A stretch of 64,000 nt of DNA, taken from contig SXID01000019.1 of NCBI GenBank assembly GCA_005772955.1, positions 1-64,000 on the forward strand, in the 5' to 3' direction. Below are positions 23,482 through 39,448 of the stretch, piece after piece. The notes beneath the pieces are model-generated. The model ran no database searches. It was not told the origin of the DNA and worked only from the letters and a program-made list of their open reading frames with translations. Source of the DNA: Planctomycetia bacterium (GTDB lineage Bacteria > Planctomycetota > Planctomycetia > Gemmatales > Gemmataceae). The position numbers were made by a program, and so were the translations under genes. Every line of letters begins with the position of its first letter. Position 1 is the first letter of the stretch.

Positions 23482-24591
23482 ATGCTCGGGCTTGGCCCCA
23501 TCTTTAACGTGATCCTCGTGAACCTGGTTCTATCCGGGGACAACGCGGTGATGATCTCGCTCGCGGTACACCGGCTGCCGCAGGCGCAGCGCCGCCGGGC
23601 GATCTTCCTCGGTTCGCTCACCGCTGTGGCCCTCCAAACCACCCTCACGCTGATCGCGTCGGTGCTCCTGCTCGTCCCAGGGTTGATGCTGATCGGCGGG
23701 GTCGGCCTGTTTTTGGTGGCCTGCTCACTGGTGCGCGCTGAGGCCGAAGCGGAGGCGCAGGATGAAGCCATGCACGGTGGCTATGTGAATACCGGGACAA
23801 TCTGGCACGCGGTTCGCCGCATCCTGGTAGTGAACTGCATCATGAGCCTCGACAACGTTCTGGCGGTCGCGGCCATGAGCCGCGGGGAACCGGTCGCCAT
23901 GGCGATCGGACTGCTCGTTTCGGTGACCGTGATCACGATGTTCAGCGGCGTCGTGGCCCGGCTGATGAACCGGTACCGGTGGCTCCCACTGACCGGCGGT
24001 TTGGTGATCGCGTTCACCGCCGGCGATCTGATCATCAGCGACCGCGATGTCGGACGGTTCGTGGTGTCCAACTTCAACGTCTCGCTGAACGCGGAATGGG
24101 ACGACCGGATGGCTACTCGCGCCGAACTCGAGACGTTCACCGGGACGGACACTCTGCCCGCCGACACCCGCTCGCGGGTGTCGGTGCAGGGGAACACGGT
24201 CGCGTTCGCCGGGGTCATGTCCGAGTCCGACCGTGACGCCCTACGGACCTGCGTGTGTTCCGATGGCGACAGGGCGAAAGTTGCCGAGATGTACAAGGGC
24301 GCACAACAGCGACCGGCCCCCGCGTGGACGCCCACGGTCGTAGACGGTTGGCTCCAGGAGCGGGTGCAAGTAAAATGGCACCACGAGTTGTGGTCCCGGG
24401 TTCGCGACGCGCGATACCCGTGGGTCAGTTACGTCTTCCAGGGCGGGTTCGTGCTTGGTCTGCTCGGGTACGTCGGATATCTTCGGCGAGATACCGTGCA
24501 GCCACACGAACAGTTGGCTCCCTCCGATGGACCATCAACCGAGGCTCAACTGTCTCCCCACGTTGGAGGTACGCCATGCAGCAGTTCCTGA
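23482..24591 (+). CDS. TerC/YjbE-family integral membrane protein with long C-terminal extension
   Basis: This 369-residue protein has the TerC core in residues 1-185: several membrane helices with the two acidic signature motifs LSGDNAVMISLAV (near 18-30) and SLDNVLAVAA (about 132-141). TerC-type proteins are linked to metal (manganese) export and tellurite resistance. The remainder, about 185 residues, is absent from typical TerC proteins; it contains a BON-like soluble segment (DTRSRVSVQGNTVAFAGVMS) and a last helix (FVLGLLGYVGYL). The stop overlaps the next gene by 16 bases, so translation is coupled. It opens the membrane-protein island. Confidence 0.85.
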   Translation: MLGLGPIFNVILVNLVLSGDNAVMISLAVHRLPQAQRRRAIFLGSLTAVALQTTLTLIASVLLLVPGLMLIGGVGLFLVACSLVRAEAEAEAQDEAMHGGYVNTGTIWHAVRRILVVNCIMSLDNVLAVAAMSRGEPVAMAIGLLVSVTVITMFSGVVARLMNRYRWLPLTGGLVIAFTAGDLIISDRDVGRFVVSNFNVSLNAEWDDRMATRAELETFTGTDTLPADTRSRVSVQGNTVAFAGVMSESDRDALRTCVCSDGDRAKVAEMYKGAQQRPAPAWTPTVVDGWLQERVQVKWHHELWSRVRDARYPWVSYVFQGGFVLGLLGYVGYLRRDTVQPHEQLAPSDGPSTEAQLSPHVGGTPCSSS

Positions 24592-25637
24592 CCCCCTACG
24601 AGATGGAGCAGGTCGATCACATTTCGTCCTGGCTCTCGGAGCGGCCGAGCGTCGTCGAAACGTTCGTGGACCGGGTCACAGCCCCGATCGCGTGGATCAG
24701 TTCGCACTTCACCATCGATCTCGGATTGGTGAACGTCCCCCGTATGGCGCGGCTGGCGGCGCTCAATGACGGGATCGCTGAGATCTCAAAGGCGGCCGGG
24801 GTCGCCGACGTGATTGAACTGAAGCACCACCCGCTGGAAGAATGCGACGCGCTGGCCCTCCAGGTGAGCTACCACAACGAGCGGCTCGCGCTCGTCGAGG
24901 GGGCGGGTTTTTCGGTCCTCGGCAGCCTCAACCCGATCGTTTCGTTTATGGCCGAACTCGGGGATGAAGCGGTGGAACTCATTTCCGCCATGCGGTCGAT
25001 CACCCGCATCGGGCACTGTTACGGGTACCGCTTGAACCGCCCTCAGGACTTGGCGATCATCGAATGCGTACTGGAGGTCGCGATGATCCTCGACCCGGTT
25101 CGGCGGGCGGCGCGCGTGAAGACCCTGCACGAAGCGCTCGACGGGAAGCTGGTTCTCACCCCTGTCGAAGAAGCCCACACTGCCGAGGAAGCGGTCGAGA
25201 AGATCACAGGCGAGGCGTCGATCGCCCAGATGGCCGCAGATGAGTTGGTGGAAGGGCCGTTCGCGGTCGTCTTCGACTACCACTTCGAGCGGCAAGTTGA
25301 CATCGCGGCCCGGCGGATTTTCCAGGAACGGTGGCTGCGGGACAACGGGAAGGTGAAGAGAGTTCCGCCGGCTCCGGCCTCGCACCGGCGGTCGTCGGCC
25401 CGTGAGGTGTACGACGCCGGTGGGCAAACGGCCTTCATCGGCGGCGGCTTTCTCGGGTTCGTGGTCTGCCTGCCGGTCGCACTGGTGGGCCGATTGTTCC
25501 GCCTGTCCAACAACCTCGCCGTCCGCGGCTGCCGAGACGGGTCCGACCAAGCCAGAGCCACCGTCCGTCGGTGGCCCGGAGCCGCCAAGACGAAGGCCGT
25601 CGGCGCCAAGCCCGCCGTCGCCACGGCGACGGTGTAA
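24576..25637 (+). CDS. EcsC-family protein
   Basis: This 353-residue protein starts at ATG 24576 with GGAGGT upstream; the open frame extends leftward but is a shadow of the TerC-like gene. EcsC features are the amphipathic N-terminal helices (TPYEMEQVDHISSWL), the central Ala/Gly-rich segment and LNRPQDLAIIECVLEVAMIL. A hydrophobic hairpin-like segment lies near the C-terminus (TAFIGGGFLGFVVCLPVALV), then a basic Ala/Lys tail. EcsC proteins were named from the Ecs transporter locus of Bacillus and their biochemical role is unknown. The 16-base overlap with the TerC-like gene indicates one transcript. Confidence 0.8.
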   Translation: MQQFLTPYEMEQVDHISSWLSERPSVVETFVDRVTAPIAWISSHFTIDLGLVNVPRMARLAALNDGIAEISKAAGVADVIELKHHPLEECDALALQVSYHNERLALVEGAGFSVLGSLNPIVSFMAELGDEAVELISAMRSITRIGHCYGYRLNRPQDLAIIECVLEVAMILDPVRRAARVKTLHEALDGKLVLTPVEEAHTAEEAVEKITGEASIAQMAADELVEGPFAVVFDYHFERQVDIAARRIFQERWLRDNGKVKRVPPAPASHRRSSAREVYDAGGQTAFIGGGFLGFVVCLPVALVGRLFRLSNNLAVRGCRDGSDQARATVRRWPGAAKTKAVGAKPAVATATV

Positions 25638-25727
25638 GGCGATCGGTGCATGAGAAAATTACCCGCCGCTCACCTTCTCTCGGCTCGTCCTAATACTCCC
25701 ACTCTACCACCCTTCGGAGATTGCGTC

Positions 25728-26006
25728 ATGTCCCGTGCCCTGGCCCCGACCGCTCCCGCCGGACTCTCCGTGAGCGGGGCGCCCTGCGCGCTCGGACAGA
25801 AGGTGTCCGACGTGGCCGGTCAGGTGGTGTATTCGACGTGCTACTGTCTTGCGTACACCGCGACCCTCCCGCTCGCGCTGGTGTTCTACTACACCCCGAA
25901 GTCGAACTGGTTCGTCCGGGGCGTTCTCGCCGGTTCGGGGCGCGCCTTCCGCGTGGTTGACGGGGTGCCGACAACGGCCAAGAAGCCGACGCGGGCGAAA
26001 CGGTAA
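25728..26006 (+). CDS. Small membrane protein, paralogue family of the island (member 1)
   Basis: This 92-residue protein starts at ATG 25728 (GGAGA upstream). The central hydrophobic segment VVYSTCYCLAYTATLPLALV is followed by FYYTPKSNWFVRGVLAGSGRA. Two genes downstream (27913 and 28299) share this layout: tyrosine-rich hydrophobic stretch, a Pro-x(1)-x-Asn step and a Gly-rich helix. The tail is basic (TTAKKPTRAKR). Function is unknown. It lies 90 bases after the EcsC-like gene on the same strand. Confidence 0.65.
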   Translation: MSRALAPTAPAGLSVSGAPCALGQKVSDVAGQVVYSTCYCLAYTATLPLALVFYYTPKSNWFVRGVLAGSGRAFRVVDGVPTTAKKPTRAKR

Positions 26007-26226: not shown

Positions 26227-27174
26227 ATGGTTCCCTCTTCCTGGAGTGGGGTGAGTGTCAAACTACCAGCCAAGCGAATCGCTCGCGGGCGCGAAATCCG
26301 CCAACATTCGGCGCCATCGGGAGTGTGGACTGGCGCCTGGAGCGATCTACTGGACGCGCCCGCAGGCCGGATCGAGGTTCCGCCCGCGCACCACCTCATC
26401 CATTTCCTCCTCGATGGTCGCGTGTCCTTGCGCGTGTCCGGAGCCGGGCTGGACCGTGTGGTTCGGGCCGGCCCTGGGAGTATCACAATCATCCCCACCG
26501 GCGGGCGGTACGCGTTCCTATCCGACGGGCCGAGTCGTTCGGTGATTTGTTCGATCGACCCCGACGAAATGATCGCGCTCGTGGCACCCGAGTTGGCCGG
26601 GGCGGCCGCGGAATTCGCCATTTTGACGCACGTGGGCATCGCGGATTCGCAACTCTGGTACTTCGGGGAAGCCCTGTCCCGTGAACTCGCCGATCCAGAA
26701 CATATGGCGAACAGCCTTTACGTTCAGTCCCTGCACATCGGGCTGACGATTCAGCTCCTTCGGCGTTACACGCCCCTCGGGCGTCGGTCTGGATCGCGTT
26801 GCGCGTTGGCCACTCGACTGACGAACGACCGGCAGGCAAGAGCGAAGGCGTACATCGAGGAACATCTGGCCGACGGTTCCTCTCTCGACGCTGTGGCTGC
26901 CGCGGTTGGCGTTAGCCCGTTCCACTTCGCGCGGATGTTCAAAGCGTCCGTCGGCCTCACGCCTCATCAATACCGAACGCAGGCGAGGGTAGACCGGGCC
27001 AAACAGCTCCTCGAACCCGGTGGCCTGTCGCTGGTTCAGGTGGCTCTGGATGTCGGGTTCTCGTCCCAAAGTCACTTGACGGCGGTGTTCCGGAAGGCGG
27101 TCGGGCTGACCCCCGCGGTGTACCGGCGGCGGTGCGGTCAGGCCGCGCGGGGGGGGCAGACCGGTACGGTATAG
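26227..27174 (+). CDS. AraC-family transcriptional regulator
   Basis: This 315-residue regulator has a cupin-like N-terminal sensor half (HHLIHFLLDGRVSLRVSG, GSITIIPTGGRYAFLS) and a C-terminal double HTH at about 215-310: SSLDAVAAAVGVSPFHFARM then LSLVQVALDVGFSSQSHLTA, with FRKAVGLTPAVYRRR as the AraC signature. It sits inside the island in the same orientation as its neighbours and is the obvious candidate local regulator. The 220-base AT-richer region upstream (26007-26226) likely contains its promoter. The ligand is unknown. Confidence 0.9.
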   Translation: MVPSSWSGVSVKLPAKRIARGREIRQHSAPSGVWTGAWSDLLDAPAGRIEVPPAHHLIHFLLDGRVSLRVSGAGLDRVVRAGPGSITIIPTGGRYAFLSDGPSRSVICSIDPDEMIALVAPELAGAAAEFAILTHVGIADSQLWYFGEALSRELADPEHMANSLYVQSLHIGLTIQLLRRYTPLGRRSGSRCALATRLTNDRQARAKAYIEEHLADGSSLDAVAAAVGVSPFHFARMFKASVGLTPHQYRTQARVDRAKQLLEPGGLSLVQVALDVGFSSQSHLTAVFRKAVGLTPAVYRRRCGQAARGGQTGTV

Positions 27175-27296: not shown

Positions 27297-27563
27297 ATGC
27301 CGTTACGAACGTCTGAGATTTTTTGTTTGGGTGTTGGTGCGGTCGCCGGTGCGGCTCTGGTGGTCGGGATGCCTTACATACGAAAGAACGTGCTCCCGAA
27401 ACTGGTCGCCGCGGACGGCACGCTGGGCAAACTCTACGCCACCGTCGCGGAGAAGGTCGCGATGGAGATCGAGAAACTCCAGGACGAAGCGGCAACCACT
27501 GCGGCGGAGTCGCCCGCTGCTGAGCCGGTTCCTCCCGTCGGACCGATGGAGCAGGTGGCCTGA
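27297..27563 (+). CDS. DUF5132-like small membrane protein
   Basis: This 88-residue protein starts at ATG 27297 (GGGGG upstream). A Gly/Ala membrane helix (FCLGVGAVAGAALVVGMPYI) is followed by an amphipathic helix (LYATVAEKVAMEIEKLQDEA) and a Pro/Ala-rich acidic tail. Length and layout resemble DUF5132, whose members often lie next to HMA2-domain P1B ATPases, and here such an ATPase gene begins 1.2 kb downstream. YtxH-like stress proteins have a similar layout, so assignment is tentative. Confidence 0.6.
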   Translation: MPLRTSEIFCLGVGAVAGAALVVGMPYIRKNVLPKLVAADGTLGKLYATVAEKVAMEIEKLQDEAATTAAESPAAEPVPPVGPMEQVA

Positions 27564-27912
27564 TTCATTAACACAGGTGGCCTTCCGCCCCCCGTTCAGG
27601 AAGAAGTGTCGCAACCTCGAATTTCGGTACGCGGGAATGTCCCATAGAGAACACTGTTAATCGTTCGAGCGTCACGGACGCATCGGTGGCGGTGGCGACT
27701 GGGCCGCCAGTGGGATGGGTGGGTGCGGTTGGCGAGGTAATAGGAGCAGGATCGTATCAGGGGCGGCAAAGTTTGATAGTGTGCGACCTGGAAAGTGGAT
27801 AAAGTCACATGCAAGTGCTCTAAACACCCAGGTTTACCAACCGACCACGGTAACGCCTGGCGGTGCGATTAGGCGGGCTTGTCCCGCGACCGTTACATTC
27901 ACGGGGGACACC
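27564..27912. other. Intergenic region inside the island
   Basis: This 349-base gap is less GC-rich than its surroundings. It has no credible ORF, hairpin or repeat. A promoter for the 27913 gene is plausible, but I see no clear element. Confidence 0.5.
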
Positions 27913-28242
27913 ATGGTCGAGCCTTTCAAGCCCGCGAACACGACGCCCTTGGCGGAGCCCGCTCCGGGGTCGTCGATTGCCGGAACCGCCTCGCTCGCGA
28001 TCAGTTCCGGCGTGTCGGCCGCCAAGTCGGCCGCGGCAAAACTCGCTCCGAAGTTGGGTTCGTACCTTCACACGGCGGTTCACGCCACCGGCTACGGGCT
28101 GTCGTTCGCCTTCGTGTTCCCGGCGGTCTTCATTGCCGAGTTGGTACCGTCCGAGAACGTTCTGATTTACGGCCTCAAGGACGGCGCCGCTGCCGCCAAG
28201 CGAGCGGTCGAGCAGGTCGCCGATCGCCGCGCGACTGCTTGA
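27913..28242 (+). CDS. Small membrane protein, paralogue family of the island (member 2)
   Basis: This 109-residue protein starts at ATG 27913 (GGGGGA upstream); the longer frame has no signal. After an Ala/Ser/Pro-rich N-terminus comes HTAVHATGYGLSFAFVFPAV, a hydrophobic segment, then ELVPSENVLIYGLKDGAAAA. The same pattern is in the next gene (VYTAGYGVSYGLVFPALLL, then VVPKENSLIQGMSDGAHDA). The two genes are clear paralogues and member 1 is more distant. The pattern recalls small phasin-like or organelle-shell-associated proteins in general layout only; function is unknown. Confidence 0.7.
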   Translation: MVEPFKPANTTPLAEPAPGSSIAGTASLAISSGVSAAKSAAAKLAPKLGSYLHTAVHATGYGLSFAFVFPAVFIAELVPSENVLIYGLKDGAAAAKRAVEQVADRRATA

Positions 28243-28298
28243 CAGCAGGCGACCAACTTCACCCCATCACCCACGACCGACCCGCAGGAGAAGCATCA

Positions 28299-28691
28299 AT
28301 GAGCCCCCAAGACAACGGGCCCAAGCCGGTCGAGTTGACCATCCTCGACAGGGTGGCCGACGAACTCGACGCGGCGGCCAGCCAGTACCCGGAGGGCGCC
28401 ACCGCCCCGTCCACGCTCTCCACAATAGTGGGCGCACCGTGCCGGTTCTTCTCCAAACTCGTGTACACCGCCGGGTATGGGGTGTCCTACGGTCTTGTGT
28501 TCCCGGCCCTCCTCCTCGCACGCGTCGTTCCCAAAGAGAACTCGCTGATTCAGGGCATGTCCGACGGTGCCCACGACGCGACGGCGATGGCCGCACAGTC
28601 GGCCGGTAACGTTCGGGCGATGCTCGGCGTCAGCGATGACCCGTACCGGGTTCAGGGGGCCGAACCCCCGGCCCTCACGGCAGGCGTCTGA
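28299..28691 (+). CDS. Small membrane protein, paralogue family of the island (member 3)
   Basis: This 130-residue protein starts at ATG 28299, preceded by GCAGGAGAAG. The hydrophobic core FFSKLVYTAGYGVSYGLVFP and VPKENSLIQGMSDGAHDATA mirror the previous gene, which ends 56 bases upstream. The N-terminus is polar and acidic (LTILDRVADELDAAASQYPE). The C-terminus is a short polar tail. The pair most likely arose by tandem duplication and is co-transcribed. No known family is recognised. Confidence 0.7.
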   Translation: MSPQDNGPKPVELTILDRVADELDAAASQYPEGATAPSTLSTIVGAPCRFFSKLVYTAGYGVSYGLVFPALLLARVVPKENSLIQGMSDGAHDATAMAAQSAGNVRAMLGVSDDPYRVQGAEPPALTAGV

Positions 28692-28784: not shown

Positions 28785-31466
28785 ATGACCCTGAGCGTGT
28801 CGCGCCTGGGCGATGGGAAGATCCGGCTGACGTGCCGGGAACTGCTGCACGACACGGACGGGCGTGTGTCCCAGGTGTTCCTCCAAAAGGTTCTCGTCGC
28901 TGACGGGGTGACCGGAGTTGCTTTCGTCCGTGGGCGCGGACTCGACCCTGAGCACGCGGTCGAGATCCGGTACGCCCACCGGCGTGTCACCTTCGACCAG
29001 GTGATGCGGTCAATTGCGACCGCGCTTCGCAGCGGAAAACCAGCCACGAAGGGCGCTGCTGCGCCGCGCAGTGCCAGTGCCATGAACGGTTTCGTCTCGC
29101 TCAACGGTGCGAACGGCACCAGCAACGGGAACATCGGCGCAAACGGCACGCACGCGTACCCGGTCGGGCGACACACCCACCACCCGGACGAGGCGAACGG
29201 CCCGCCGCGGAACTCGCTGGTTGGGCTGCCGGCCCTTCCCGACAACCGCGGGGTCAGTCGCTACTACCGCCAGGGGCGAGTGTTCACGACCTGGGAAGTC
29301 ATCCACGAGATGCCCGACCGACTCCGCCTTCGGCACCCGGCCCTGCGCCGGAAGGCCGAAGTGTGCCAGGCGATCGAACGGGACTTGATGGGCGTTCTCG
29401 GCGTGGACAACTACTCCACCAGCCCGTTGACCGGGACGGTTGTTGTCAAGTACAACTCCCGCAAACTGCGCCGCGATCAGGTGTTCACGATTCTGGATAC
29501 GGCCCTCGCGAACGCGACCATACCCGACAAGTATGACCCGCTCGACCTCGACCTGCCGCTCAACACCGTGAACGTCCCGCTCGCGATCGCGGGCACGTTC
29601 GCCGCGCCGATCCTGCTCCCCGCCGCGGCTGGGTTGCTCCTCTACAACTCCATCCACACCTACAAGGCCGCCTACGATGTCCTCGTTCGCGAGCGGCGTC
29701 TCGGGGTGGACGTGCTCGACGCGATCGTGGTCACCGCGTGCCTGGGCACCGGCACCATCTTCGCCGGGGCCGTCCTCACGTGGTGCCTTAGCTTCGGTCG
29801 ACTGTTGGTGAAGAACACGCAGGACCGGTCGAAGAAGATGCTCCTGAGCGCGTTCGGCAAGCAGCCGCGGTTCGTGTGGCTCCTGAAGGACGGGCAGGAG
29901 ATCGAAACGCCGCTGGAGAAACTCCAGGCGAATGACATCATCGTCGTCGGGACCGGCGACACGGTGCCCGTGGACGGGATGATTCACGAGGGTATCGCGA
30001 CCATCGACCAGCACGCCCTGACTGGCGAATCGACCCCGGCCGAGAAGGGCATCGGGGACCGCGTGTTTGCCTCGACTCTGCTGGTTGCCGGCCGCATGCA
30101 GGTGCGGGTGGAACAGGCCGGTTCGGAGACGGCCTCGGCGAAGATCGCCCGAATCCTGAACGAGACGGCCGGGTACAAACTCGGCGCCCAACACCGTGGC
30201 GAAGCGATGGCCGATAAGGCCGTCATCCCGACGCTCGCCATCGGGGCCACTGCGCTGGCGACCATTGGGACCGGTGGGGCGGTCGCGGTCCTCAACAGCG
30301 ACTTCGGCACCGGCATCCGCATGGCGGCTCCGCTGGGGATGTTGTCCTCGCTCGCGCTCGCGGCCAACCGCGGCATCCTGGTGAAGGACGGGCGGGCACT
30401 GGAGAAGATGTCCGAAATCGACACCGTGCTGCTCGACAACACCGGCACCCTGACCCGCGAGGTTCCGGAGGTTGGGCAGGTCGTCACCTGCAAGGGCTAC
30501 ACCGAGAACAAGATCCTCCAGTGGGCCGCGGCTGCAGAGAACCGGTTTGCCCACCCGATCGCCAAGGCCATCGTTCAGGAGTTCGAGAAGACCGGGCTGC
30601 CGATGCTGCCGATCGAGGACACCAAGTACAAGATGGGGTACGGGATCAGCGCCGAGATCGAAGGGTACCTCATCCGCGTCGGCAGCGCCCGGTACATGAA
30701 GATCGAAGGGGTGGACATCCCGCCGCACGTCCAGGCGGTACTGGACCGGGCGCACCACGAAGGGCATACGCTGGTGTTCGTCGCCGTGGACGACCACTTG
30801 GGCGGGGCGATCGAACTGCAAGCGTCACAGCGCCCGGAGGTGGCCGACATCATCGCCGGCTTGCGTGCCCGAGGGATCAAGCACATCGCCATCATTTCCG
30901 GCGACCACGACGCACCAACCCGCAAACTGGCGATCAAACTCGGGATGGACGAATACTTCGCCGGGGTGCTGCCGGCCGACAAGGCGTCTTATGTCGAACG
31001 TCTCCAGGCCCAAGGCCGGAAGGTGTGCTTCGTCGGTGACGGGATTAACGACTCCATAGCCCTTAAGAAGGCCGACGTGTCAATTTCCCTCCGCGGGGCG
31101 ACTTCGATCGCCACGGACACCGCCCAAGTGGTCTTCATGGAGGAGAGCCTGGGCAAGTTGTGCGAGTTCCGCGACATCGCGCAGGCACTGGACGAGAACG
31201 TCAAACGGAGTTGGAAGCTGATCCTGGTTCCGAACGCGTTGTGCATCATCGGGGCGTTCACGCTCGGGTTCGGGGTGATGGCGTCGGTGCTGACCAACAA
31301 CGTCGCGGCGATCGCAGCCCTGGCGAACGGTATGGCCCCGCTCCGGCAACTCCGCCGGGAACAGGAAGCCGCCCAGGAGCAAGAGGAGCGCGAACTGGAG
31401 GAAGCAGTCGATGGCGAACAAGGAACGTGTTTACTCCCGCAAACTGAAGCAGCCCTTGCCAGATGA
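28785..31466 (+). CDS. P1B-type metal ATPase-like protein with DNTGT motif and no CPx
   Basis: This 893-residue protein starts at ATG 28785 (a TTG at 28758 is the alternative). The N-terminus carries the island's ~70-residue HMA-like domain (GDGKIRLTCRELL start), a Gly/Asn-rich linker, then an HMA2-like domain (MPDRLRLRHPALRRKAE). The actuator motif TGES is at 413-416 and GDGIND at 751-756. The phosphorylation motif is DNTGT (551-555), not DKTGT. The membrane helix that normally carries CPC/CPx reads MAAPLGMLSSLALAANRG, so the usual metal ligands are absent. The HP motif is kept as AHPIAKAI. It may be a divergent transporter (the P1B-6/FezB type is a candidate) or one with altered kinetics. 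The next gene starts within its 3' end. Confidence 0.88.
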   Translation: MTLSVSRLGDGKIRLTCRELLHDTDGRVSQVFLQKVLVADGVTGVAFVRGRGLDPEHAVEIRYAHRRVTFDQVMRSIATALRSGKPATKGAAAPRSASAMNGFVSLNGANGTSNGNIGANGTHAYPVGRHTHHPDEANGPPRNSLVGLPALPDNRGVSRYYRQGRVFTTWEVIHEMPDRLRLRHPALRRKAEVCQAIERDLMGVLGVDNYSTSPLTGTVVVKYNSRKLRRDQVFTILDTALANATIPDKYDPLDLDLPLNTVNVPLAIAGTFAAPILLPAAAGLLLYNSIHTYKAAYDVLVRERRLGVDVLDAIVVTACLGTGTIFAGAVLTWCLSFGRLLVKNTQDRSKKMLLSAFGKQPRFVWLLKDGQEIETPLEKLQANDIIVVGTGDTVPVDGMIHEGIATIDQHALTGESTPAEKGIGDRVFASTLLVAGRMQVRVEQAGSETASAKIARILNETAGYKLGAQHRGEAMADKAVIPTLAIGATALATIGTGGAVAVLNSDFGTGIRMAAPLGMLSSLALAANRGILVKDGRALEKMSEIDTVLLDNTGTLTREVPEVGQVVTCKGYTENKILQWAAAAENRFAHPIAKAIVQEFEKTGLPMLPIEDTKYKMGYGISAEIEGYLIRVGSARYMKIEGVDIPPHVQAVLDRAHHEGHTLVFVAVDDHLGGAIELQASQRPEVADIIAGLRARGIKHIAIISGDHDAPTRKLAIKLGMDEYFAGVLPADKASYVERLQAQGRKVCFVGDGINDSIALKKADVSISLRGATSIATDTAQVVFMEESLGKLCEFRDIAQALDENVKRSWKLILVPNALCIIGAFTLGFGVMASVLTNNVAAIAALANGMAPLRQLRREQEAAQEQEERELEEAVDGEQGTCLLPQTEAALAR

Positions 31467-31722
31467 GAAGAAGCCGCTCCTCTCGAACCTCATTTTGGAG
31501 CGGCTCGGAAGCCAAGCGCCGGGGATGACCGTCGCCTGGCACAAGACCGACCCGGTGATGACCGTCCGCGCACGGATGGTGACGTTCACCATCCGGTTCG
31601 CACTGGCGGAAATGACCGTGGAGTGCGAGTACGGGTGGCTCGCCCGACAGATCGTCACCGACGCGACTCGGGTGAAAACACGGGCCACCATCCACCAGTT
31701 GTGTGACGACGCCGACCTTTGA
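31411..31722 (+). CDS. 103-residue protein overlapping the ATPase gene
   Basis: ATG 31411 is preceded by GGAGGAAG and lies inside the last 56 bases of the ATPase gene, so translation is coupled. The protein is soluble and basic at the start (NKERVYSRKLKQPLPDEKKP), then beta-rich (GMTVAWHKTDPVMTVRARMV, FTIRFALAEMTVECEYGWLA). The layout slightly resembles the polyhydroxyalkanoate granule-associated 'PHA_gran_rgn' family, but I would not assign it. Overlap and orientation suggest a job with the ATPase. Confidence 0.7.
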   Translation: MANKERVYSRKLKQPLPDEKKPLLSNLILERLGSQAPGMTVAWHKTDPVMTVRARMVTFTIRFALAEMTVECEYGWLARQIVTDATRVKTRATIHQLCDDADL

Positions 31723-31770: not shown

Positions 31771-34296
31771 ATGTCCGCCGGACCAGACCATCGACCGCTT
31801 CCGCCGTCCGGCGTCCGGGTTCGGGTGCTCCGCGATGTCATTGAGGTCGCGTGCCCGGCGATCTTCTCACGGTCCGCAGCCGGTCAGATCTCCCACTTCC
31901 TTCGTGAAACCGCTGCGATTCCGCGAGTCGAGGCCGTTGAGGTCGATCTCGACGCGGGGGTTGCCCTGATCCGGTTTCAGCCCGGTCGGGTGGACGCCCG
32001 TCGGTTGGTCGGCGAACTCGCGGCCAACCTCCGGCGTCCGAGTTCCACCCCCGGCTTGGGCGACCTGTCGCCGGCGGTCGTCGAGTCGCTGTCCCGCGAC
32101 GGCAAGATTCAAGTCCAGCGGGTCGCCGATGTGGTGACCGACCTCGAACTGCTTCACGACATCCACGGGCGGCTGCGGGTCCGGCACCCGCATCTCAAGG
32201 GCGACCCGGTGCTCGCTCGCGAGGTCGAAGGGGAACTGCGTCCTCTGAACGGCGTGACGGCCGTCGAGGCCCGTACCCGCACCGGCTCGGTGCTGGTCTA
32301 CTACACCCCCGCCGTGCTCACCAAGCCAGATCTGCTGCGAGCGCTCGGACGGGCGATCCACAAGACGGGCCGCCGCGCCGCGACACCCGTGACCGTCGCC
32401 GCGCTGGTCCCACACAGCGTCAGTCTCGGCGCCGCAACGATCGCCGAGTTCGCTGCACCTGCGCTACTACCGGCCGCGGGTGCAGTGTTCGTCGCGGCCA
32501 ACTGGCGTTCTCTGGTGAACGGGTCGAAGGAACTGCTCACCCTCCGGCCGCGGCTCGACGGGTTGGGCACCGCGATCACCACCCTCACCGTGATCAACGG
32601 GAGCTTCTTCGCGGCATCGGCCATGCTGTGGCTGATCAACTTCTGGCGACTGAAGCACGAATGGGCACGCTCCGCGGCCCGCGATCGGTTGCTTGAAGAC
32701 CTCGCGGTGCCGGTGGACGAACCACAGGCCGAGAGCCTTCCTGCGCAATTGGGCGACGGCCGCAGAAAGGGCAAACCGGGCGACATTGTGCGCCTGACCA
32801 GCGGCGACCGGATCACGGCCGACGGCGAGGTGTGCGGCGGCGCCGCAGCGGTGGACGAGCGGTGTCTGACCGGCCGTGACGCGATCGTTCGGAGGGCGGT
32901 TGGGGACCGAGTGCTGGCCGGGGCGACCGTTCTCGACGGCCGAATCGTGGTCCGGCGGACGGCGACCGGGTCGGAAACACGCGCGTCGGTTCTCGGCCGG
33001 GAAATCGAGGGGGCGCTGCAAGCGAGCCGTCACCCGAAGGCGTACACCGTTCGTTCTGAGCGCGCTGCCGCGACGATGGTGGTGCCGGCGTTCGCGTTGG
33101 CCGGCGCCGGGTTTGCCCTCGGCGGGGTAGGGACCGCGCTGGCCGTTCTCCGCCCGGACTACGCGAGCGGGATCGGTGTGGCCGACTCTTTCGAGCGCAT
33201 CCGGGTCGTCGGCACGCACATGCAAGACGGCGTGCTGGTCCGCCGCCCCGAGGCGCTCGCCCGGCTCCGCTCGGTCCGCTCGGTCCTCATTTCCTCCGCC
33301 ACGCTCCCACACAGTTGCTCGGTGGTCCACCGGGTCGAATCTCAAAGCCTATGGACCGCAGAAGCGTTACTCGGTTTGGCCGTTCGTACGGGGCGATACT
33401 TCGGTAACGAGGTCGCGGAGGCGGTCCGGGCCGAGGACCGCGGCGTGGTGCCAATTGCGGTTCCGGTCGAGTTCGACGACGGCGTGACCTTCTGGGACGG
33501 TCAGCGACTGATTCGGATCGAACATGCGCGCGGCGCGCCGGGGTACCACACGCTCACCGTCACCACAAACGCGGGAACTGCCGGTCGCATCGACATCCGA
33601 CCGGCCGCCGAACCGGCTGCGGCGTTGGTGACTGCATTCAAGCGGAACCGGGTGGCGGTCGGGTTCGTCGGTGGCGACCGGAAGCAACTGCTAAGGGCCG
33701 GAGCGGACTTCGTCATCCCGCCGGTTCGAGACGATGAACTCGGGGATCAGATCGAGGAATGGGGCGAAGCAGGGCGGCGCATTGTGTTCGTGGGCGACGT
33801 GCGTTCATACCCCCGTGCCGCCGGCGCGGCCGAGGTGAGCGTCAGCACGGCCGGACTCGACCACCCTACTGCGGGCGATGTCGTCCTCCTGAGCGGCACC
33901 TGCGACTCGGCCCCCGCACTTTGGGGCGCGGCGCGCCGGGGCCGGTTGCGGCGGGCGATGGCCTTCGGGATGACGTGGGGGCCGAACGCGGCGGGCGTGG
34001 CGGCCGGGTTTGTGTTCGGATTGCCGCTGATCACGGTCGCCCTGAGCAACGCCGGGACTCTGGCCGCGTACACGTGGGGGCAGCGCAACACCCGCCTCCC
34101 GGCGTCCACGGCGGCCATCTGGCGGCCGGGCGCTGGTCCGTCGCGGAACTTGTTTAAATCGTCGGACGTTCGCGCCCCGCCGATTGAGTCGGGGGACGGT
34201 GAGACGGTCGGGGTGGACCAACCGGAGACGCAGGGGAAGGCTCCTGACGCGGGTGCGGAAGACGCGCACCCGAACACGGTGCTGCAAAACGCATGA
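31771..34296 (+). CDS. P-type ATPase pseudoenzyme (all catalytic motifs lost)
   Basis: This 841-residue protein is a paralogue of the preceding ATPase: same N-terminal HMA-like domain (about 20-90), the HMA2-like domain (HDIHGRLRVRHPHLKGDP), matching membrane helices and cytoplasmic loops in order. The catalytic parts are gone. Where the partner has VLLDNTGTLT this has VLISSATLP (Ser508 replaces the phosphorylated Asp); TGES is LTGRDA; GDGIND is VGDVRSYPRAAG. The open frame is intact over 2.5 kb, so it is maintained and not decaying. A structural or regulatory partner of the active ATPase is a reasonable inference. The C-terminal 60 residues are a polar tail not in the partner. Confidence 0.88.
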   Translation: MSAGPDHRPLPPSGVRVRVLRDVIEVACPAIFSRSAAGQISHFLRETAAIPRVEAVEVDLDAGVALIRFQPGRVDARRLVGELAANLRRPSSTPGLGDLSPAVVESLSRDGKIQVQRVADVVTDLELLHDIHGRLRVRHPHLKGDPVLAREVEGELRPLNGVTAVEARTRTGSVLVYYTPAVLTKPDLLRALGRAIHKTGRRAATPVTVAALVPHSVSLGAATIAEFAAPALLPAAGAVFVAANWRSLVNGSKELLTLRPRLDGLGTAITTLTVINGSFFAASAMLWLINFWRLKHEWARSAARDRLLEDLAVPVDEPQAESLPAQLGDGRRKGKPGDIVRLTSGDRITADGEVCGGAAAVDERCLTGRDAIVRRAVGDRVLAGATVLDGRIVVRRTATGSETRASVLGREIEGALQASRHPKAYTVRSERAAATMVVPAFALAGAGFALGGVGTALAVLRPDYASGIGVADSFERIRVVGTHMQDGVLVRRPEALARLRSVRSVLISSATLPHSCSVVHRVESQSLWTAEALLGLAVRTGRYFGNEVAEAVRAEDRGVVPIAVPVEFDDGVTFWDGQRLIRIEHARGAPGYHTLTVTTNAGTAGRIDIRPAAEPAAALVTAFKRNRVAVGFVGGDRKQLLRAGADFVIPPVRDDELGDQIEEWGEAGRRIVFVGDVRSYPRAAGAAEVSVSTAGLDHPTAGDVVLLSGTCDSAPALWGAARRGRLRRAMAFGMTWGPNAAGVAAGFVFGLPLITVALSNAGTLAAYTWGQRNTRLPASTAAIWRPGAGPSRNLFKSSDVRAPPIESGDGETVGVDQPETQGKAPDAGAEDAHPNTVLQNA

Positions 34297-34368: not shown

Positions 34369-34734
34369 ATGTCCGACCACCGACAAAATAGCTTCCCCCA
34401 TCTCCGGCTCCACGCGTCGGATGACGCGCCGCCCGAGCAAGGCGATTCGATCGGCAAGTTGCCCCCTGAGGTGGGGGCGCTGCTCGTGGTCGCGGGTGTC
34501 ATCGGGATCGTGTTGCCGGGTCCGGGAACGCCGGTGTTCCTGGCCGGGGCTTCGGTCCTGTGGCCATCCGTGTTCGGCCGGGTGGAGCGATTCGCCAAGT
34601 GGCGGTTCCCGAAGACCCACCGGGCCAGCATCGTGCAACTCAAACAGTACCTGAACGACCTGGATTACCGGTTCCCCGGGTCGCTTGAACGGCATACTCC
34701 CGATGGCGGTTCCGCGGGGACCGTCCCAAACTGA
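34369..34734 (+). CDS. PGPGW-like small membrane protein
   Basis: This 121-residue protein starts at ATG 34369. A hydrophobic hairpin (VGALLVVAGVIGIVLPGPGT then PVFLAGASVLWPSVFG) contains LPGPGTP, similar to the PGPGW transmembrane family, and is followed by a basic amphipathic segment (RVERFAKWRFPKTHRASIVQ). The N-terminal 30 residues are polar. PGPGW proteins have no known function. It lies 73 bases after the pseudo-ATPase and belongs to the same run of genes. Confidence 0.7.
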   Translation: MSDHRQNSFPHLRLHASDDAPPEQGDSIGKLPPEVGALLVVAGVIGIVLPGPGTPVFLAGASVLWPSVFGRVERFAKWRFPKTHRASIVQLKQYLNDLDYRFPGSLERHTPDGGSAGTVPN

Positions 34735-34769
34735 TTCCAAACCCGGGCGCGGCCCGGAGAAGGTGCGTA

Positions 34770-34880
34770 ATGCTCCGTCGCTTCACCAATGTGGTTACCG
34801 AAGGCATTCTGTCCGGGTTCACGTTCGCGATCGGCTGGGTGCTCGGGCTCGTGTTCCTGAGCAGCCTCCTGGTGGCCTGA
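34770..34880 (+). CDS. 36-residue membrane peptide
   Basis: ATG 34770 has GGAGAAGG upstream at a good distance and the frame ends at TGA 34878-34880. The product has a basic start (MLRRFTNVVTEG) and one long helix (FTFAIGWVLGLVFLSSLLVA). It is flanked closely by membrane-protein genes of the same strand. The strong ribosome site makes it more credible than other ORFs of this size, but expression is unproven. Confidence 0.6.
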   Translation: MLRRFTNVVTEGILSGFTFAIGWVLGLVFLSSLLVA

Positions 34881-35003: not shown

Positions 35004-36437
35004 ATGGACAGTGCCGCGCCCACACCGCCCAAGCAATCCACACCCACCGTCGTGTCCGAGGTGGGCCGGGTGACCATCTCCGTGCCCGGTATGTTTGCCG
35101 ACCCGGCCGACCCGACTGCGAACCGAATCGTTCCCCTTCTCATGGAAATCCCAGGGGTCACAGCGGTCGAAATTCGCCGCGGCCAGGGGGCGAGTATTGT
35201 GCTCGGTTCGAAGACAACGCCGACCCCGGAGCAACTCCGGGCGATTGCCGACAGCTTCCGAGCCGTCTCGCCCGCGCCGGTCGTACTCGCGCCCGCGCCG
35301 GTCGCGCCCGCCGATACCGCGGTTGCCCCCTCGGAGGGCAGGTCGGAACAGCCCGTGGCCCCCGAATCGGGCGGACTCCGGACCCGCAACAACGCGCTCC
35401 TGGGGGTGTTCATCCCGCTGACGTTGCTGCTCGAACAGCAGGACGCCCCGCCGCTCGTTACGTTCCTGGCGGCCGCCATTTGCTTGATCCCGCTCGCGTC
35501 GCTGCTCGAGAAGGCGACCGCGTCACTCGCCGCGGCGTCTGGTACGACGGTCGGCGCGCTGCTCAACTCCACCCTCGGGAACCTGCCGGGAATCATTATC
35601 GGCCTCACTGCACTCCAGAAGGGTTTGGACGTGGTGGTCAAGGGCGCGATCGTCGGGACGGTGGTCGGCAGCCTGCTGTTGTCGCTGGGGGCGGCCATGT
35701 TTCTCGGCGGGTTCCGGCGGGCCATCCCGAAGTTCAACACGCTTTCGGTCGGGGTGTCCGGGAACCTGCTGGTCCTGGGCGTCGTGGGGCTGTTGGTCCC
35801 GCTGTTGTTCAACCTGACCGACAGCGGGTCCAAGACGGAGATCAGCCTGGAGATCGCTGCCGTGCTTCTGGTCACCTACCTGCTGAGCTTCGTGTTTTCG
35901 CTGATCACCCACAAGAGTTACCTGGGCACGGCGATGGAGGGGCACGAAGCAGCGGTCTCCGCGACGCCGCACTGGGGCGTGCCCAAGGCACTGGTCGTGC
36001 TGGCCGCGACCGCCGCCGTGTTGGTGGTCGTGAGCGACATGCTGACCGGTGCCCTCGCCCCCGCAGCCAAGGAGATCGGCCTGTCGGACGTGTTCGCCGG
36101 GATGTTCCTCCTGGCCGCTGCCGCGAACATGCCGGAGATGCTCAAAGTCGTGTCCTTCGCCCGAAAGGGGAACATGGGACTGGCGTTCAACGTCACGCTT
36201 CAGTCCTGTACGCAGATGGTCGTCTTCGTCGCCCCGCTGTTGGTGTTCGTCAGTTTCTTCACCGGCGGTACGCTGAACCTGGTGTTCGCTCCGTTCGCGG
36301 CCGTGGGGCTAGTGCTGACCGTGCTGGCCATCCGCGGGTTGTTGACCGACGGTGAGACGAACTGGCTGGAAGGCATGTTCCTGATCGCCTTGTACGTGCT
36401 GCTCGGGATCGGCGTGTTCAACCTTCCGGTCAAGTGA
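35004..36437 (+). CDS. Ca2+/H+ antiporter-like (CaCA) protein with N-terminal HMA-like domain
   Basis: This 477-residue protein starts at ATG 35004. Residues 18-90 are the island's HMA-like domain (EVGRVTISVPGMFADP, EIPGVTAVEIRRGQG); a Pro/Ala linker runs to about 125. The rest is a CaCA-type transporter with about ten helices. The two alpha-repeats are recognisable: TTVGALLNSTLGNLPGII and GMFLLAAAANMPEML, where the usual Glu of alpha-1 (GNATELI) is replaced by LPG while NMPE keeps the Glu in alpha-2. Loss of one cation-binding carboxylate would alter or abolish Ca2+ transport. Fusion to an HMA-like domain is not typical of the family. Confidence 0.85.
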   Translation: MDSAAPTPPKQSTPTVVSEVGRVTISVPGMFADPADPTANRIVPLLMEIPGVTAVEIRRGQGASIVLGSKTTPTPEQLRAIADSFRAVSPAPVVLAPAPVAPADTAVAPSEGRSEQPVAPESGGLRTRNNALLGVFIPLTLLLEQQDAPPLVTFLAAAICLIPLASLLEKATASLAAASGTTVGALLNSTLGNLPGIIIGLTALQKGLDVVVKGAIVGTVVGSLLLSLGAAMFLGGFRRAIPKFNTLSVGVSGNLLVLGVVGLLVPLLFNLTDSGSKTEISLEIAAVLLVTYLLSFVFSLITHKSYLGTAMEGHEAAVSATPHWGVPKALVVLAATAAVLVVVSDMLTGALAPAAKEIGLSDVFAGMFLLAAAANMPEMLKVVSFARKGNMGLAFNVTLQSCTQMVVFVAPLLVFVSFFTGGTLNLVFAPFAAVGLVLTVLAIRGLLTDGETNWLEGMFLIALYVLLGIGVFNLPVK

Positions 36438-36457
36438 CCACATACGAGGACGACCCA

Positions 36458-37294
36458 ATGGTACGGCCCGCCCCCGATTGTTGCCCGCGACCCGGTCCGC
36501 GAATCACCTGCCGGCCCGGTGAGATCGTGATCGACCATCCAGAACTGTTCTCGGAGGGGGCAGAGGAGCTGTGCCTGAAATTTCTCAACCGCGCCCTTCA
36601 CGTGCCGGACGTGGCCGCGGTCGAGGTGGACCGACTCGGCCGCGCCACCATCTTCCTGAACCCCGACGTGGACCGCCCCACCGACGCCCTCAAGGCCGTC
36701 GCCGCCAGTCTCCGGGCGCCGGAGCCGTTCATTGAGAACCGCGCGATCGGGCGTTTCCGTTTCCCCGTGGGCGAGCGGTTCATCGCCGCCCGCCGTTCGG
36801 ACTGGCTTAAGGATATTTCCCCCGAGTTGGGTTCGGAGGTACTCGGACTGGCGACCGATGGGCATTCGACCGCGCCGGCTCCGAGCCGGGGTCAGATCGT
36901 TCGCGGTGCGTACGGGGTACTGGCCGTTGGGTCGCTCGGGATGGCCTGGGTCGGGCTTGTCACACCGGGCATCCCGATCGTGCCGTTCGTCCTCCTATCG
37001 AGTTTTTGCGCGATCCGTTCGTCCCCCGCGTTGCACGCCCGGATCAAGCGGTCGAAGGTCTTCGGCCGGATGCTTTTGGACTGGGAACAGCACCGGGCGA
37101 TCAGCCGGCGGGTGAAGCGGTTCGCCATCTTCTCGACCCTGGTGGTTACGACCATGACCATGATCGTCGTGTCGGGTAACCCGCTACTGCTCGCGCTGAG
37201 CGCGGTTTTTGGCGTGATGGGGCTGACTATCGTGCTGTTGTTCCCGACGGTCGATCCCGGCGCTCGGACCCGGCGGACCTTGGTGTCACCGTGA
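36458..37294 (+). CDS. YbaN/DUF454-like membrane protein with N-terminal HMA-like domain
   Basis: This 278-residue protein is placed at ATG 36458, which has GAGGAC at a good distance; GTG 36434 overlapping the antiporter stop is the alternative. Residues about 17-90 are the HMA-like domain (RPGEIVIDHPELFSEGAEEL, VPDVAAVEVDRLGRATI). After a linker comes a DUF454 domain: RGAYGVLAVGSLGMAWVGLV and TPGIPIVPFVLLSSFCAIRS, then SPALHARIKRSKVFGRMLLD. Two further helices follow. DUF454/YbaN proteins are small inner-membrane proteins of unknown function, normally without an extra N-terminal domain. Confidence 0.82.
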   Translation: MVRPAPDCCPRPGPRITCRPGEIVIDHPELFSEGAEELCLKFLNRALHVPDVAAVEVDRLGRATIFLNPDVDRPTDALKAVAASLRAPEPFIENRAIGRFRFPVGERFIAARRSDWLKDISPELGSEVLGLATDGHSTAPAPSRGQIVRGAYGVLAVGSLGMAWVGLVTPGIPIVPFVLLSSFCAIRSSPALHARIKRSKVFGRMLLDWEQHRAISRRVKRFAIFSTLVVTTMTMIVVSGNPLLLALSAVFGVMGLTIVLLFPTVDPGARTRRTLVSP

Positions 37295-37438: not shown

Positions 37439-38560
37439 ATGGGCCAAAAGTCGTCGATTCGCTACTACGCCGGGGAATTCTTGACGCGCGCCAAGAATTT
37501 CATTCGTCACCCGATCACCCAAATCGTGATCGGGGTGTGCATCGGCATGAGCGCGATCGCGGAGATCGTCCAGAGCATCGAGGAAAATCGGCATTACCTG
37601 GGGGGGCACCACGGCCTGCTCATCTTCGGTATCGGGCAGATCTTTGTCGCCCTCGGCGACCTTCGCGAGGCTCTGCAACAAAGCGCCGAAGCGCTGGAGA
37701 AATCGCACCTCCTCGAAGAGGTGGCACGGATCGAGGAAAAGGTCGTTGCTGAAGCGATGCAGATCGAGCAAAAAGTCATTGAACTCGGTCAGACGATCTT
37801 CACGGATGAGACCGCGGCGAACAGCGGGGTGCCCCAAGCGGGCGAAACGGTGGATTCGGTCGCGGTCGCCAGTTCGGTTGTGGCGTTGGTTTCGACCGGA
37901 ACGGCGGGTTCGGCCGAGGCGGTCGTCAAGACCGTGGCGGAGGAACCCCAACCGGTAACCGAGGAGGTGCCCCCGCCGCTCTACTCCATGTTGGAGGAGG
38001 AACCGGTTGCAGTCCAGGTGCCGGTAGAGGTGGCTCTCGTGGCGGTCGCCAGTTCGGTTGTGGCGTTGGTTTCGACCGGAACGGCGGGTTCGGCCGAGGC
38101 GGTCGTCAAGACCGTGGCGGAGGAACCCCAACCGGTGGCCGAGGAGGTGCCCCCGCCCATCTACTCCATGTTGGAGGAGGAACCCGTTGCAGTCCAGGTG
38201 CCGGTAGAGGTGGCTCCCGCCGCACCGGTCGTGTTGGAACCGCTCTCGCTTCCGTCTGCGGCCGAGGTGCCGTCTTTCGCGCCCGCAGAGTACGATCGGG
38301 TGCCGGGCCCACGGCCCGTCGCGATCCAACCGGGGCGAGTGGTGCTGAATTTTCCGGGGCTGTTCGCCGAAGGGCCGAACGGCTCAGAAGCGCTGGTGCA
38401 GCGGTTGCTTGCGGTGCCCGGTGTGGAGCGGGTTGAGAGCGGCGGGGATGCGGTCACGATGTACCTGGTCGGCGGCGCGACCCCGGGACCGGGGCTGTTG
38501 AAGGCGACCGCAGCCGCACTGCGCGAGGTCCGAACGGGAGCCCTGGTCCTCCCGAATTAG
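37439..38560 (+). CDS. Membrane-anchored protein with internal repeat and C-terminal HMA-like domain (paralogue A)
   Basis: This 373-residue protein starts at ATG 37439 (GAGAGG upstream). The N-terminus has a membrane segment (ITQIVIGVCIGMSAIAEIVQ) and a second hydrophobic stretch (HHGLLIFGIGQIFVALG), then a coiled coil (EKSHLLEEVARIEEKVVAEA). The middle is a 60-residue unit repeated twice in tandem, Val/Ala/Glu/Pro-rich. The last 75 residues are the HMA-like domain (QPGRVVLNFPGLFAEGPNG). The next gene has the same ends without the repeated middle. Function is unknown; a scaffold or anchor in a metal-handling membrane is plausible. Confidence 0.75.
   Translation: MGQKSSIRYYAGEFLTRAKNFIRHPITQIVIGVCIGMSAIAEIVQSIEENRHYLGGHHGLLIFGIGQIFVALGDLREALQQSAEALEKSHLLEEVARIEEKVVAEAMQIEQKVIELGQTIFTDETAANSGVPQAGETVDSVAVASSVVALVSTGTAGSAEAVVKTVAEEPQPVTEEVPPPLYSMLEEEPVAVQVPVEVALVAVASSVVALVSTGTAGSAEAVVKTVAEEPQPVAEEVPPPIYSMLEEEPVAVQVPVEVAPAAPVVLEPLSLPSAAEVPSFAPAEYDRVPGPRPVAIQPGRVVLNFPGLFAEGPNGSEALVQRLLAVPGVERVESGGDAVTMYLVGGATPGPGLLKATAAALREVRTGALVLPN
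37862..38221 (+). repeat. 180-bp tandem duplication inside paralogue A
   Basis: Two directly adjacent copies (37862-38041 and 38042-38221) differ at about seven positions, roughly 96% identical. The unit is exactly 60 codons, so the frame is kept. The near-identity implies recent duplication. Confidence 0.95.
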
Positions 38561-38764
38561 TGTGGTACCGGGAACTGTGTCGCGTTGGCCCCGGGTGCAA
38601 CAGCGCCAGACGACGCGGACCCTCCAGGGTCGACGCGACACAGTTTCTGAAGCCGCTCGAGTGTTGAAGGTGCTGGGTTTCGCAAACCGCTCCCAACCTC
38701 TCCCCGAAACAAAGGGATGGGCTTCAAGACAACGTCCAAATTGGGCACGATCGGTGTCAATCAC

Positions 38765-39448
38765 ATGAACCAGAACTCACCACCGAGCCGCTCCGGCGCG
38801 ATCATCCGGTTCTTTACGCGGGCGAAGACCTTCTTCGAGTCCCCGGCCTGCAAGGTCGGGATCGGGCTGTGTCTTGTCCTCACCGCTGTTGCCGAGATTG
38901 TGGACGCGATCGTCGAAGACGCGCACAAACTTGGGGGCCATCACGGCCTTCTTGTCTTTGGAGTCGGCCAAATTGGCACCCACGGGGGCACCTTCATCAA
39001 AGGGGCCAAGAATAGTTACCTCGGGTGGAAGGAGAGGCGGCGCGCCGCGGAAGAGGCGAAGAACAACCCTCCCGCCGGGGGGATGGGTCAGAGCGAAGTC
39101 CCGGCCGTTGCGTCGGAGCCGCGACCTGCGGACGACATGGTTCCGCAACGCGTGCTCCGGTCGGTGACCCTCCGACCGGGGCGTGTCGTGCTGAGCATCC
39201 CCGGGCTACTGTCCGGGGGGAACGCGTCTTGGTCTGTGCTGGTGCAGCGGTTGCTGGCGGTGCCCGGTGTGGAGCGGGTTGAGACCGGTGGGGACGCGGT
39301 CACGATGCACCTGGTCGGCGGCGCGACCCCGGGACCGGGGCTGTTGAAGGCGACCGCCGCCGCGATTCGTGCGGACCGTTTGAAGCCGGTCAGTTGGTCT
39401 CCATCGCCCAGTGGGTCGCCCGTTGGATCAACTCTGCGAGCGTCGTGA
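38765..39448 (+). CDS. Membrane-anchored protein with C-terminal HMA-like domain (paralogue B)
   Basis: This 227-residue protein starts at ATG 38765, chosen because the paralogue begins at the matching point and both share CAATCACATG there; ATG 38717 is an upstream alternative. It has the same N-terminal layout (FFTRAKTFFESPACKVGIGL, HHGLLVFGVGQI), a shorter polar middle, and the HMA-like domain (RPGRVVLSIPGLLSGGNASW). About 125 bases of the domain are some 95% identical to paralogue A. Its 3' end overlaps the convergent response-regulator gene by 59 bases. Function is unknown. Confidence 0.75.
   Translation: MNQNSPPSRSGAIIRFFTRAKTFFESPACKVGIGLCLVLTAVAEIVDAIVEDAHKLGGHHGLLVFGVGQIGTHGGTFIKGAKNSYLGWKERRRAAEEAKNNPPAGGMGQSEVPAVASEPRPADDMVPQRVLRSVTLRPGRVVLSIPGLLSGGNASWSVLVQRLLAVPGVERVETGGDAVTMHLVGGATPGPGLLKATAAAIRADRLKPVSWSPSPSGSPVGSTLRAS
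39240..39364 (+). repeat. Near-identical segment shared with paralogue A (38394-38518)
   Basis: The two segments differ at about six of some 125 positions, while the rest of the two genes is much more diverged. This points to recent duplication of the domain or gene conversion between the paralogues. Confidence 0.85.

Follow-up and report, generated by a model that had tools for sequence, protein, structure and literature searches.

A gene block that pairs two P-type ATPases, one of them catalytically dead, occupies positions 23482-39448 of the 64,000-nucleotide stretch of contig SXID01000019.1 analysed here (the window), which comes from the 5.9-Mb genome of a planctomycete of the Gemmataceae. 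All of its approximately 16 genes lie on the plus strand, and open reading frames together with Pfam and NCBIfam scans indicate that most serve membrane transport. The block is a real, mobile, and conserved unit. Its two ATPases, named here ATP1 (active-type) and ATP2 (inactive), are kept together across three phyla, and six of its proteins share a domain, the tag, that is found nowhere else in the host genome. With a probability a little short of even, the product of the block is a membrane assembly for cation export, in which an active/dead pump pair, docking through the tag, and a scaffold of small proteins would be combined.

A conserved pair of active and inactive ATPases

The two pumps are encoded as follows:
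28785..31466, plus strand: ATP1, active-type P1B ATPase with two N-terminal HMA-like domains (TIGR01525; motif table)
31771..34296, plus strand: ATP2, conserved pseudo-ATPase (motif table, tree, and dN/dS)

ATP1 scores best with heavy-metal P-type models, reaching 410.5 bits with TIGR01525 (cut-off 346.25), and has the catalytic motifs TGES, HP, and GDGIND. All copies of ATP1 keep TGES, HP, GDGxND, and the phosphorylation motif, which is DKTGT in all relatives and DNTGT in the window. The fourth transmembrane helix (TM4) of the window's ATP1 reads NSDFGTGIRMAAP; the family consensus is N[SC]D[FL]GTGIRMAAP in TM4 and [TF]N[NQ] in TM6. No ATP1 has a CPx ion-binding motif in TM4, where D[FL]GTGIR takes the position of CPCALG, and TM4 of every ATP1 is without a Cys or Pro ligand.

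ATP2 lacks TGES, DKTGT, and GDGxND, which bears out an earlier reading of the bare letters (the sequence-only reading) that had called the second ATPase catalytically dead. It retains two HMA-like domains and the core of the A-domain. Its TM4 has RPDYASG in the window, and dead partners in general keep [RG]PD[YF] in this helix. The second N-terminal domain of each pump matches PF19991 (HMA_2) above the gathering threshold of 30 bits, with 34.9 bits in ATP1 and 36.9 bits in ATP2.

Have the dead pumps arisen repeatedly, or do they share one history? A dead partner lies near ATP1 in 16 of the 18 loci with enough flanking sequence, in Planctomycetota, Verrucomicrobiota, and Pseudomonadota. In a tree of 49 ATPase sequences, in which long branches were flagged, the dead pumps form one clade (support 100/99), the ATP1s form their own clade (97/97), and the two group together apart from the CPx pumps (100/100). 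The dead clade is of single origin. ATP1 and ATP2 distances are strongly correlated across 14 loci (Mantel r 0.956; 0 of 20,000 permutations), a pattern that shared descent of the hosts could also yield. The correlation agrees with a single ancient loss of activity, after which the two pumps were inherited together.

The ratio of nonsynonymous to synonymous substitution rates (dN/dS) between the window and L037, a locus from a congener, is 0.115 for ATP1 and 0.257 for ATP2. The latter value indicates purifying selection, and a decaying pseudogene was therefore rejected as a reading of ATP2, which is moreover present in three phyla. A literature search for a P-type ATPase with an inactive sister found nothing, and no P-type ATPase is known to us to require one. 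If ATP1 and ATP2 form one pump, this would be a new quaternary principle for a textbook pump family.

Some loci of other planctomycetes have additional proteins between the two pumps. In L065 (12765-13884), L076 (10883-11627), and L058 (13112-13735), a protein of 106-260 residues and a one-helix protein of ~70 residues are encoded between ATP1 and ATP2; these are absent from the window, and two of the larger intervening proteins gave no meaningful Pfam match. Locus L060 carries two dead ATPases.

A domain shared by six proteins

The tag is a cysteine-free, HMA_2-like domain of ~70 residues without CxxC, with the pattern ..LF..........R.....V..VE.D...G.A.I.. and was not part of the sequence-only reading. 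In ATP1 and ATP2 it comes first and the Pfam HMA_2 domain follows; a CAX-type antiporter (CAX) and a DUF454 protein carry it as an N-terminal fusion, and two membrane-anchored paralogues, X1 and X2, as a C-terminal one. The copies are:
28812..29033, plus strand: copy 1, ATP1 N-terminus (own-genome match 2.1e-22, with a profile that included copy 1)
31831..32037, plus strand: copy 2, ATP2 N-terminus (leave-one-out E 0.0055)
35058..35264, plus strand: copy 3, antiporter N-terminus (leave-one-out E 3.5e-9)
36512..36718, plus strand: copy 4, DUF454 protein N-terminus (leave-one-out E 4e-10)
38327..38527, plus strand: copy 5, X1 C-terminus (leave-one-out E 4.4e-20)
39173..39373, plus strand: copy 6, X2 C-terminus (leave-one-out E 1.4e-20)

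Leave-one-out profiles detect the tag in four of the six proteins at E <= 3.5e-9, and a profile search of the host genome returned six copies, every one within the block. The tag alone has no Pfam match. Comparison with the second, HMA_2 domain by hhalign gave 95% and E 2e-8. An AlphaFold2 model of the copy in the DUF454 protein is ferredoxin-like (beta-beta-alpha-beta-beta-alpha; predicted local distance difference test, pLDDT, 85.5), and the first Foldseek matches to this model are the HMA domains of the metallochaperones MerP and MNK1 (E 0.017). By hhalign and predicted fold, the tag is a relative of HMA_2 (PF19991). VIA-align returned only middling Z scores with common alpha/beta folds, and therefore no function was drawn from it; a model of the full-length DUF454 protein was too low in confidence (pLDDT 53).

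Elsewhere in the family, CAX relatives are untagged and align only from residue ~100-135 onwards, which suggests that the tag was probably added to the CAX of this locus. An HMA-like N-terminus on DUF454 is also found in genome G060 and in Schlesneria, and was seen in L055, L051, L053, L058, and L065.

Conservation, mobility, and gene content

The sequence-only reading had set conservation of the neighbourhood in related genomes as its own test, and this conservation is found. Two congeners (L037 and L038) are colinear in the order smB, smC, ATP1, 103-aa protein, ATP2, PGPGW protein, 36-residue peptide, CAX, DUF454 protein, and X1; X2 comes next in L037, and the L038 contig ends at that point. 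In another genus (L039/L077), homologues of nearly every part, including TerC, EcsC, and CAX, lie rearranged within ~20 kb, without X1 and X2. In another planctomycete family, L076 has in a row CAX, a small protein, a DUF5132-like protein, ATP1, the 103-aa protein, ATP2, and PGPGW. Schlesneria-type loci contain a small protein, ATP1, ATP2, PGPGW, the 36-residue peptide, a further small protein, and an HMA-like-DUF454 protein.

The core extends to further phyla. ATP1, a dead partner, and small proteins are kept in Verrucomicrobiota, in Azomonas, and in one metagenome-assembled genome (MAG) of the Acetobacteraceae, with ExoD and an amino-acid permease in place of CAX and DUF454. Four proteobacterial or verrucomicrobial loci (L062, L064, L066, and L060) have ExoD-like and amino-acid permease genes, and in some of them an SRPBCC protein is found. 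The comparison genomes are mostly metagenome assemblies, and the loci nearest to that of the window come from Gemmataceae and Singulisphaera MAGs. A named strain, Azomonas macrocytogenes CECT 4462, also carries the ATP1/ATP2 pair, which makes the question of a joint pump testable.

The distribution is patchy. ATP1 orthologues occur in 4 of 95 family genomes and in 2 of 392 sampled genomes of the phylum; only two candidates were scored per genome, so the latter figure may be an undercount. The genes that flank the island (DksA and DHH on the left, rhomboid on the right) lie 7-13 kb apart, without the island between them, in genomes G024 and G016 (L125 and L128). The island copy of G024 (L037) is on another contig, beside a group II intron domain (L037:16012-16232) and an adjoining transposase-like gene. 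Among plasmids, a single distant relative of ATP1 was found, on Methylobacterium pMRAD05. TerC is conserved near the island in G060 only.

The remaining genes of the block and of its right edge are:
23482..24591, plus strand: TerC-family membrane protein (Pfam TerC 1.3e-36; homologue in L039/L077, 33-35%)
24576..25637, plus strand: EcsC-family protein (Pfam EcsC 2.4e-11; L039 homologue 30%)
25728..26006, plus strand: smA, small membrane protein (matched by small proteins of related loci)
26227..27174, plus strand: AraC-type regulator with weak cupin similarity (Pfam HTH_18 1e-25)
27297..27563, plus strand: DUF5132/PacL-like one-helix protein, N-terminal TM and charged helix (L054 homologue 35%)
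27757..28242, plus strand: smB, small membrane protein (74% to L037)
28299..28691, plus strand: smC, small membrane protein, smB paralogue (80% to L037)
31411..31722, plus strand: 103-aa protein (81% in L037, 36% in L039; similar protein adjoining ATP1 in L076)
34369..34734, plus strand: PGPGW-type membrane protein (Pfam PGPGW 2.5e-5, barely above cut-off)
34770..34880, plus strand: 36-residue membrane peptide MLRRFTNVVTEGILSGFTFAIGWVLGLVFLSSLLVA (homologues at the same place after PGPGW)
35004..36437, plus strand: CAX-type Ca2+/H+ antiporter with N-terminal tag (TIGR00378; Pfam Na_Ca_ex 8.3e-22)
36434..37294, plus strand: DUF454 membrane protein with N-terminal tag (Pfam DUF454 7.2e-23)
37439..38560, plus strand: X1, membrane-anchored, C-terminal tag
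38765..39448, plus strand: X2, X1 paralogue, membrane anchor and C-terminal tag
39390..40064, minus strand: NarL-type response regulator, right edge (Pfam Response_reg and GerE; L037 counterpart 75%, same place)
40057..41808, minus strand: PAS histidine kinase, partner of the response regulator (Pfam; L037 counterpart 71%, same place)

Several neighbouring genes overlap: TerC and EcsC by 16 bases (EcsC starts at 24576), ATP1 and the 103-aa gene by 56, and CAX and DUF454 by 4. The inventory of the sequence-only reading holds up well. Its one-strand, 16-kb cluster with TerC, EcsC, two P-type ATPases, PGPGW, an antiporter, and DUF454 is recovered by Pfam matches, and its three small paralogues, 36-residue peptide, and two anchored paralogues are real, with homologues in the same neighbourhood of other genomes. 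The AraC-type regulator and the 103-aa protein inside the block were missing from its gene list, and its claim of a new domain set is supported.

Among the small proteins, the homologous part of smB spans residues 49-158, and the true start is therefore probably near 27900. The smC family is present in most ATP1 loci. PGPGW follows ATP2 in L037, L038, L076, and the Schlesneria loci, and is also present in L039. The gene of the 36-residue peptide is smaller than gene callers normally report, and is kept after PGPGW in several planctomycete genera; identity to the window's peptide is 78% in L037, 58% in L039, and 42-48% in Schlesneria-type loci. Proteins shaped like the one encoded at 27297-27563 adjoin ATP1 in L076 and L063; the window's protein has no Pfam match to DUF5132 (PF17195) or to DUF1490 (PacL).

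The antiporter scores 224.9 bits with TIGR00378 (NCBIfam cax; cut-off 211.15), in agreement with the CaCA-like antiporter read earlier. Its family has an acidic residue (GN..E) in both repeats; L037 keeps both, L039 and L076 are without the second, and the window does not have the pair. As for regulation, the AraC-type protein is likely to be the island regulator. The response regulator/histidine kinase pair at the island edge is conserved in two genomes (the window's and G024), and response regulators are also found within the G060 locus. An RNA-family search of related loci returned nothing relevant and no metal riboswitch. A defence function was considered and rejected, PADLOC having given no match.

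Possible functions and related systems

What might such a block do? In the cation-export assembly proposed here, ATP1 would be the ATP-driven pump and ATP2 most likely its fixed partner subunit, structural or regulatory, in a heteromeric pump. The spread of the N-terminal pump fold to partner proteins suggests that the tag is a docking module, which would hold the ATPases, CAX, X1/X2, and the DUF454 protein together in a single assembly. A scaffold would be provided by the small one-helix proteins (DUF5132/PacL-like, smA-C, and the 36-residue peptide). ATP1 has no CPx or thiol ligand, and CAX and TerC lie nearby; a hard divalent cation is therefore the most likely cargo, with Mn2+ and Ca2+ ahead of Fe2+. 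It would be moved out of the cytosol, into the periplasm or an invagination. A bolder version is improbable: a new class of P-type pump, an obligate heteromer of active and dead P1B-related subunits without CPx, which recruits the antiporter and other membrane proteins through a dedicated, degenerate HMA domain and, in planctomycetes and their relatives, fills a dedicated membrane compartment with a hard cation.

The best-supported analogy is the mycobacterial effluxosome. PacL, a protein with a TM and Glu/Ala repeats, clusters P-ATPases through the N-terminal metal-binding domains of the pumps, and several pumps share one platform (PMC9374683, PMC13043812). As in PacL/Ctp effluxosomes, P-type pumps and small TM-plus-charged-helix proteins are found here in one operon. 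However, CtpC keeps CPC whereas every ATP1 is without CPx, and neither an inactive partner pump nor a tag on antiporter, DUF454, or anchor proteins is part of the effluxosomes as described. Should the cysteine-free HMA-like domain serve for docking, the folds of metal-binding domains would be reused as addresses for building membrane assemblies, a question left open by the mycobacterial work.

A parallel kind of cluster, with another class of pump, is found in gammaproteobacteria (L105:8327-13795, L106:16-6736, and L108:4143-10656), where small HMA_2 proteins occur with true DUF5132 proteins, one of which has a weak DUF1490 match (E 0.088). EcsC is present in L106 and L108, a P2-type cation ATPase in L105 and L108 (with an N-terminal HMA_2 in L108 and a similar start in L105), and a Na/Ca exchanger in L106. 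Like the block, these clusters combine several HMA_2-bearing proteins and EcsC with a P-type ATPase or a Na/Ca exchanger, and their DUF5132 proteins have a DUF5132-like counterpart in it; they likewise point to a cation. By contrast, their pump is P2-type and not P1B, HMA_2 is mostly on stand-alone small proteins, and no dead pump was seen.

The sequence-only reading had suggested a ferrosome-like island. The fez loci (described in PMC10979944 and PMC12574912) are likewise patchy clusters in which a P-type pump with an HMA-type N-terminus has small hydrophobic partners. A FezC-type, DUF4405-like cytochrome is known for the D. magneticus cluster. A literature search on Fez operon gene names found only unrelated papers. 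P1B-6 pumps beside DUF6110 genes served as the yardstick for FezB. These pumps have VD[FY]SCA.K..P in TM4 and LHN in TM6; ATP1 has neither signature and forms a separate clade in the tree, and by this yardstick it was rejected as FezB. No island protein matched DUF4405 or a cytochrome in the Pfam scan. Pfam also gave no DUF6110 match at E <= 1 for any of them, although the island has small proteins with a TM and a helix. Membership of the fez loci is therefore not upheld. The block further differs from fez loci in its two pumps, one of them dead, and in its additional CAX, DUF454, PGPGW, and X1/X2 proteins. The DUF6110-P1B-6 pairs of Bacillota (L120, L121, L123, and L124) share with the block a small TM protein adjoining a P1B-type pump, an HMA-like N-terminus, and D[FY] with a basic residue in TM4, but they have a single pump, SCA where ATP1 has GTG in TM4, and LHN where it has [TF]N in TM6. 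An assembly that organises P-type pumps in the membrane, in the fashion of a PacL platform or a ferrosome, is plausible.

A ferrosome or other lumen-forming storage organelle, with membrane vesicles filled with iron or another cation through ATP1, nevertheless seems unlikely. The HMA_2-bearing ATPases and small one-helix proteins are reminiscent of fez loci, DUF6110 small proteins adjoin P1B-6 pumps, and the poorly understood EcsC-, DUF454-, and PGPGW-type proteins could conceivably shape membranes; the features of ATP1 and the missing FezC and DUF6110 matches speak against it. It is somewhat less probable again that the island merely collects unrelated transport and stress genes without a joint machine. 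This would agree with its rarity, with the linkage of its flanks in relatives without it, with the group II intron beside the G024 copy, and with the variable presence of TerC, EcsC, and AraC. However, the same families recur together in other phyla, genes overlap, the ATPases are co-inherited, and the tag is confined to six proteins of the block.

Two further explanations concern the pumps themselves. ATP1 and ATP2 might move no metal and be a flippase-like or other non-metal P-type device for membrane or envelope maintenance, since TM4 of ATP1 offers no Cys or Pro ligand, and ExoD, SRPBCC (lipid-transport type), and amino-acid permease genes lie near the proteobacterial and verrucomicrobial loci. 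The preference of ATP1 for heavy-metal models, the HMA_2 domains, and the CAX and TerC neighbours make this doubtful, at a chance of about one in eight. Least probable of all is that ATP2 is a transport-dead sensor of metal or ATP, through which ATP1 or the right-edge two-component system would be controlled. Its retained HMA-like domains and A-domain core, with the phosphorylation chemistry lost, would suit a sensor, as would the kinase/regulator pair in two genomes and the response regulators of G060, but there is no direct link between ATP2 and the kinase, and among the more distant loci read, none showed the kinase.

Several observations weigh against the cation-export assembly. L056 and L063 carry ATP1 without a dead partner within ~10 kb. 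Leave-one-out profiles recover the tag of ATP2 weakly (0.0055) and miss that of ATP1 (9.7), whose assignment rests on the family alignment; a wider alignment with ATP1 and ATP2 N-termini from other phyla closes the ATP1 gap in part. The DUF5132 likeness read earlier in the one-helix protein, which has no match in Pfam, amounts to a marginal profile similarity to true DUF5132 proteins (probability 37%, E 3.5e-4). The G024 copy has no TerC, EcsC, or AraC regulator next to it, which makes the left part accessory, and Rfam found no metal riboswitch and no other RNA family over 22-42 kb of the window. Finally, two catalytic positions are changed in the window where relatives are canonical: its ATP1 has DNTGT for DKTGT at 30435-30449 (AAC for AAG), and the first repeat of its CAX has GNLPG for GNLPE (35589-35591, GGA for GAG). 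With these two changes, the window's own copy of the island may be impaired; alternatively, both may be assembly errors.

Elsewhere in the window, a small Cys-rich protein with repeated 'PNLLDKLKSRLG'-like units is encoded at 12368-12799 on the plus strand. A 1378-aa protein on the minus strand (55792-59925) has a long low-complexity middle rich in Lys, Pro, Glu, and Asn, which probably causes the strong AT skew at 56-58 kb.

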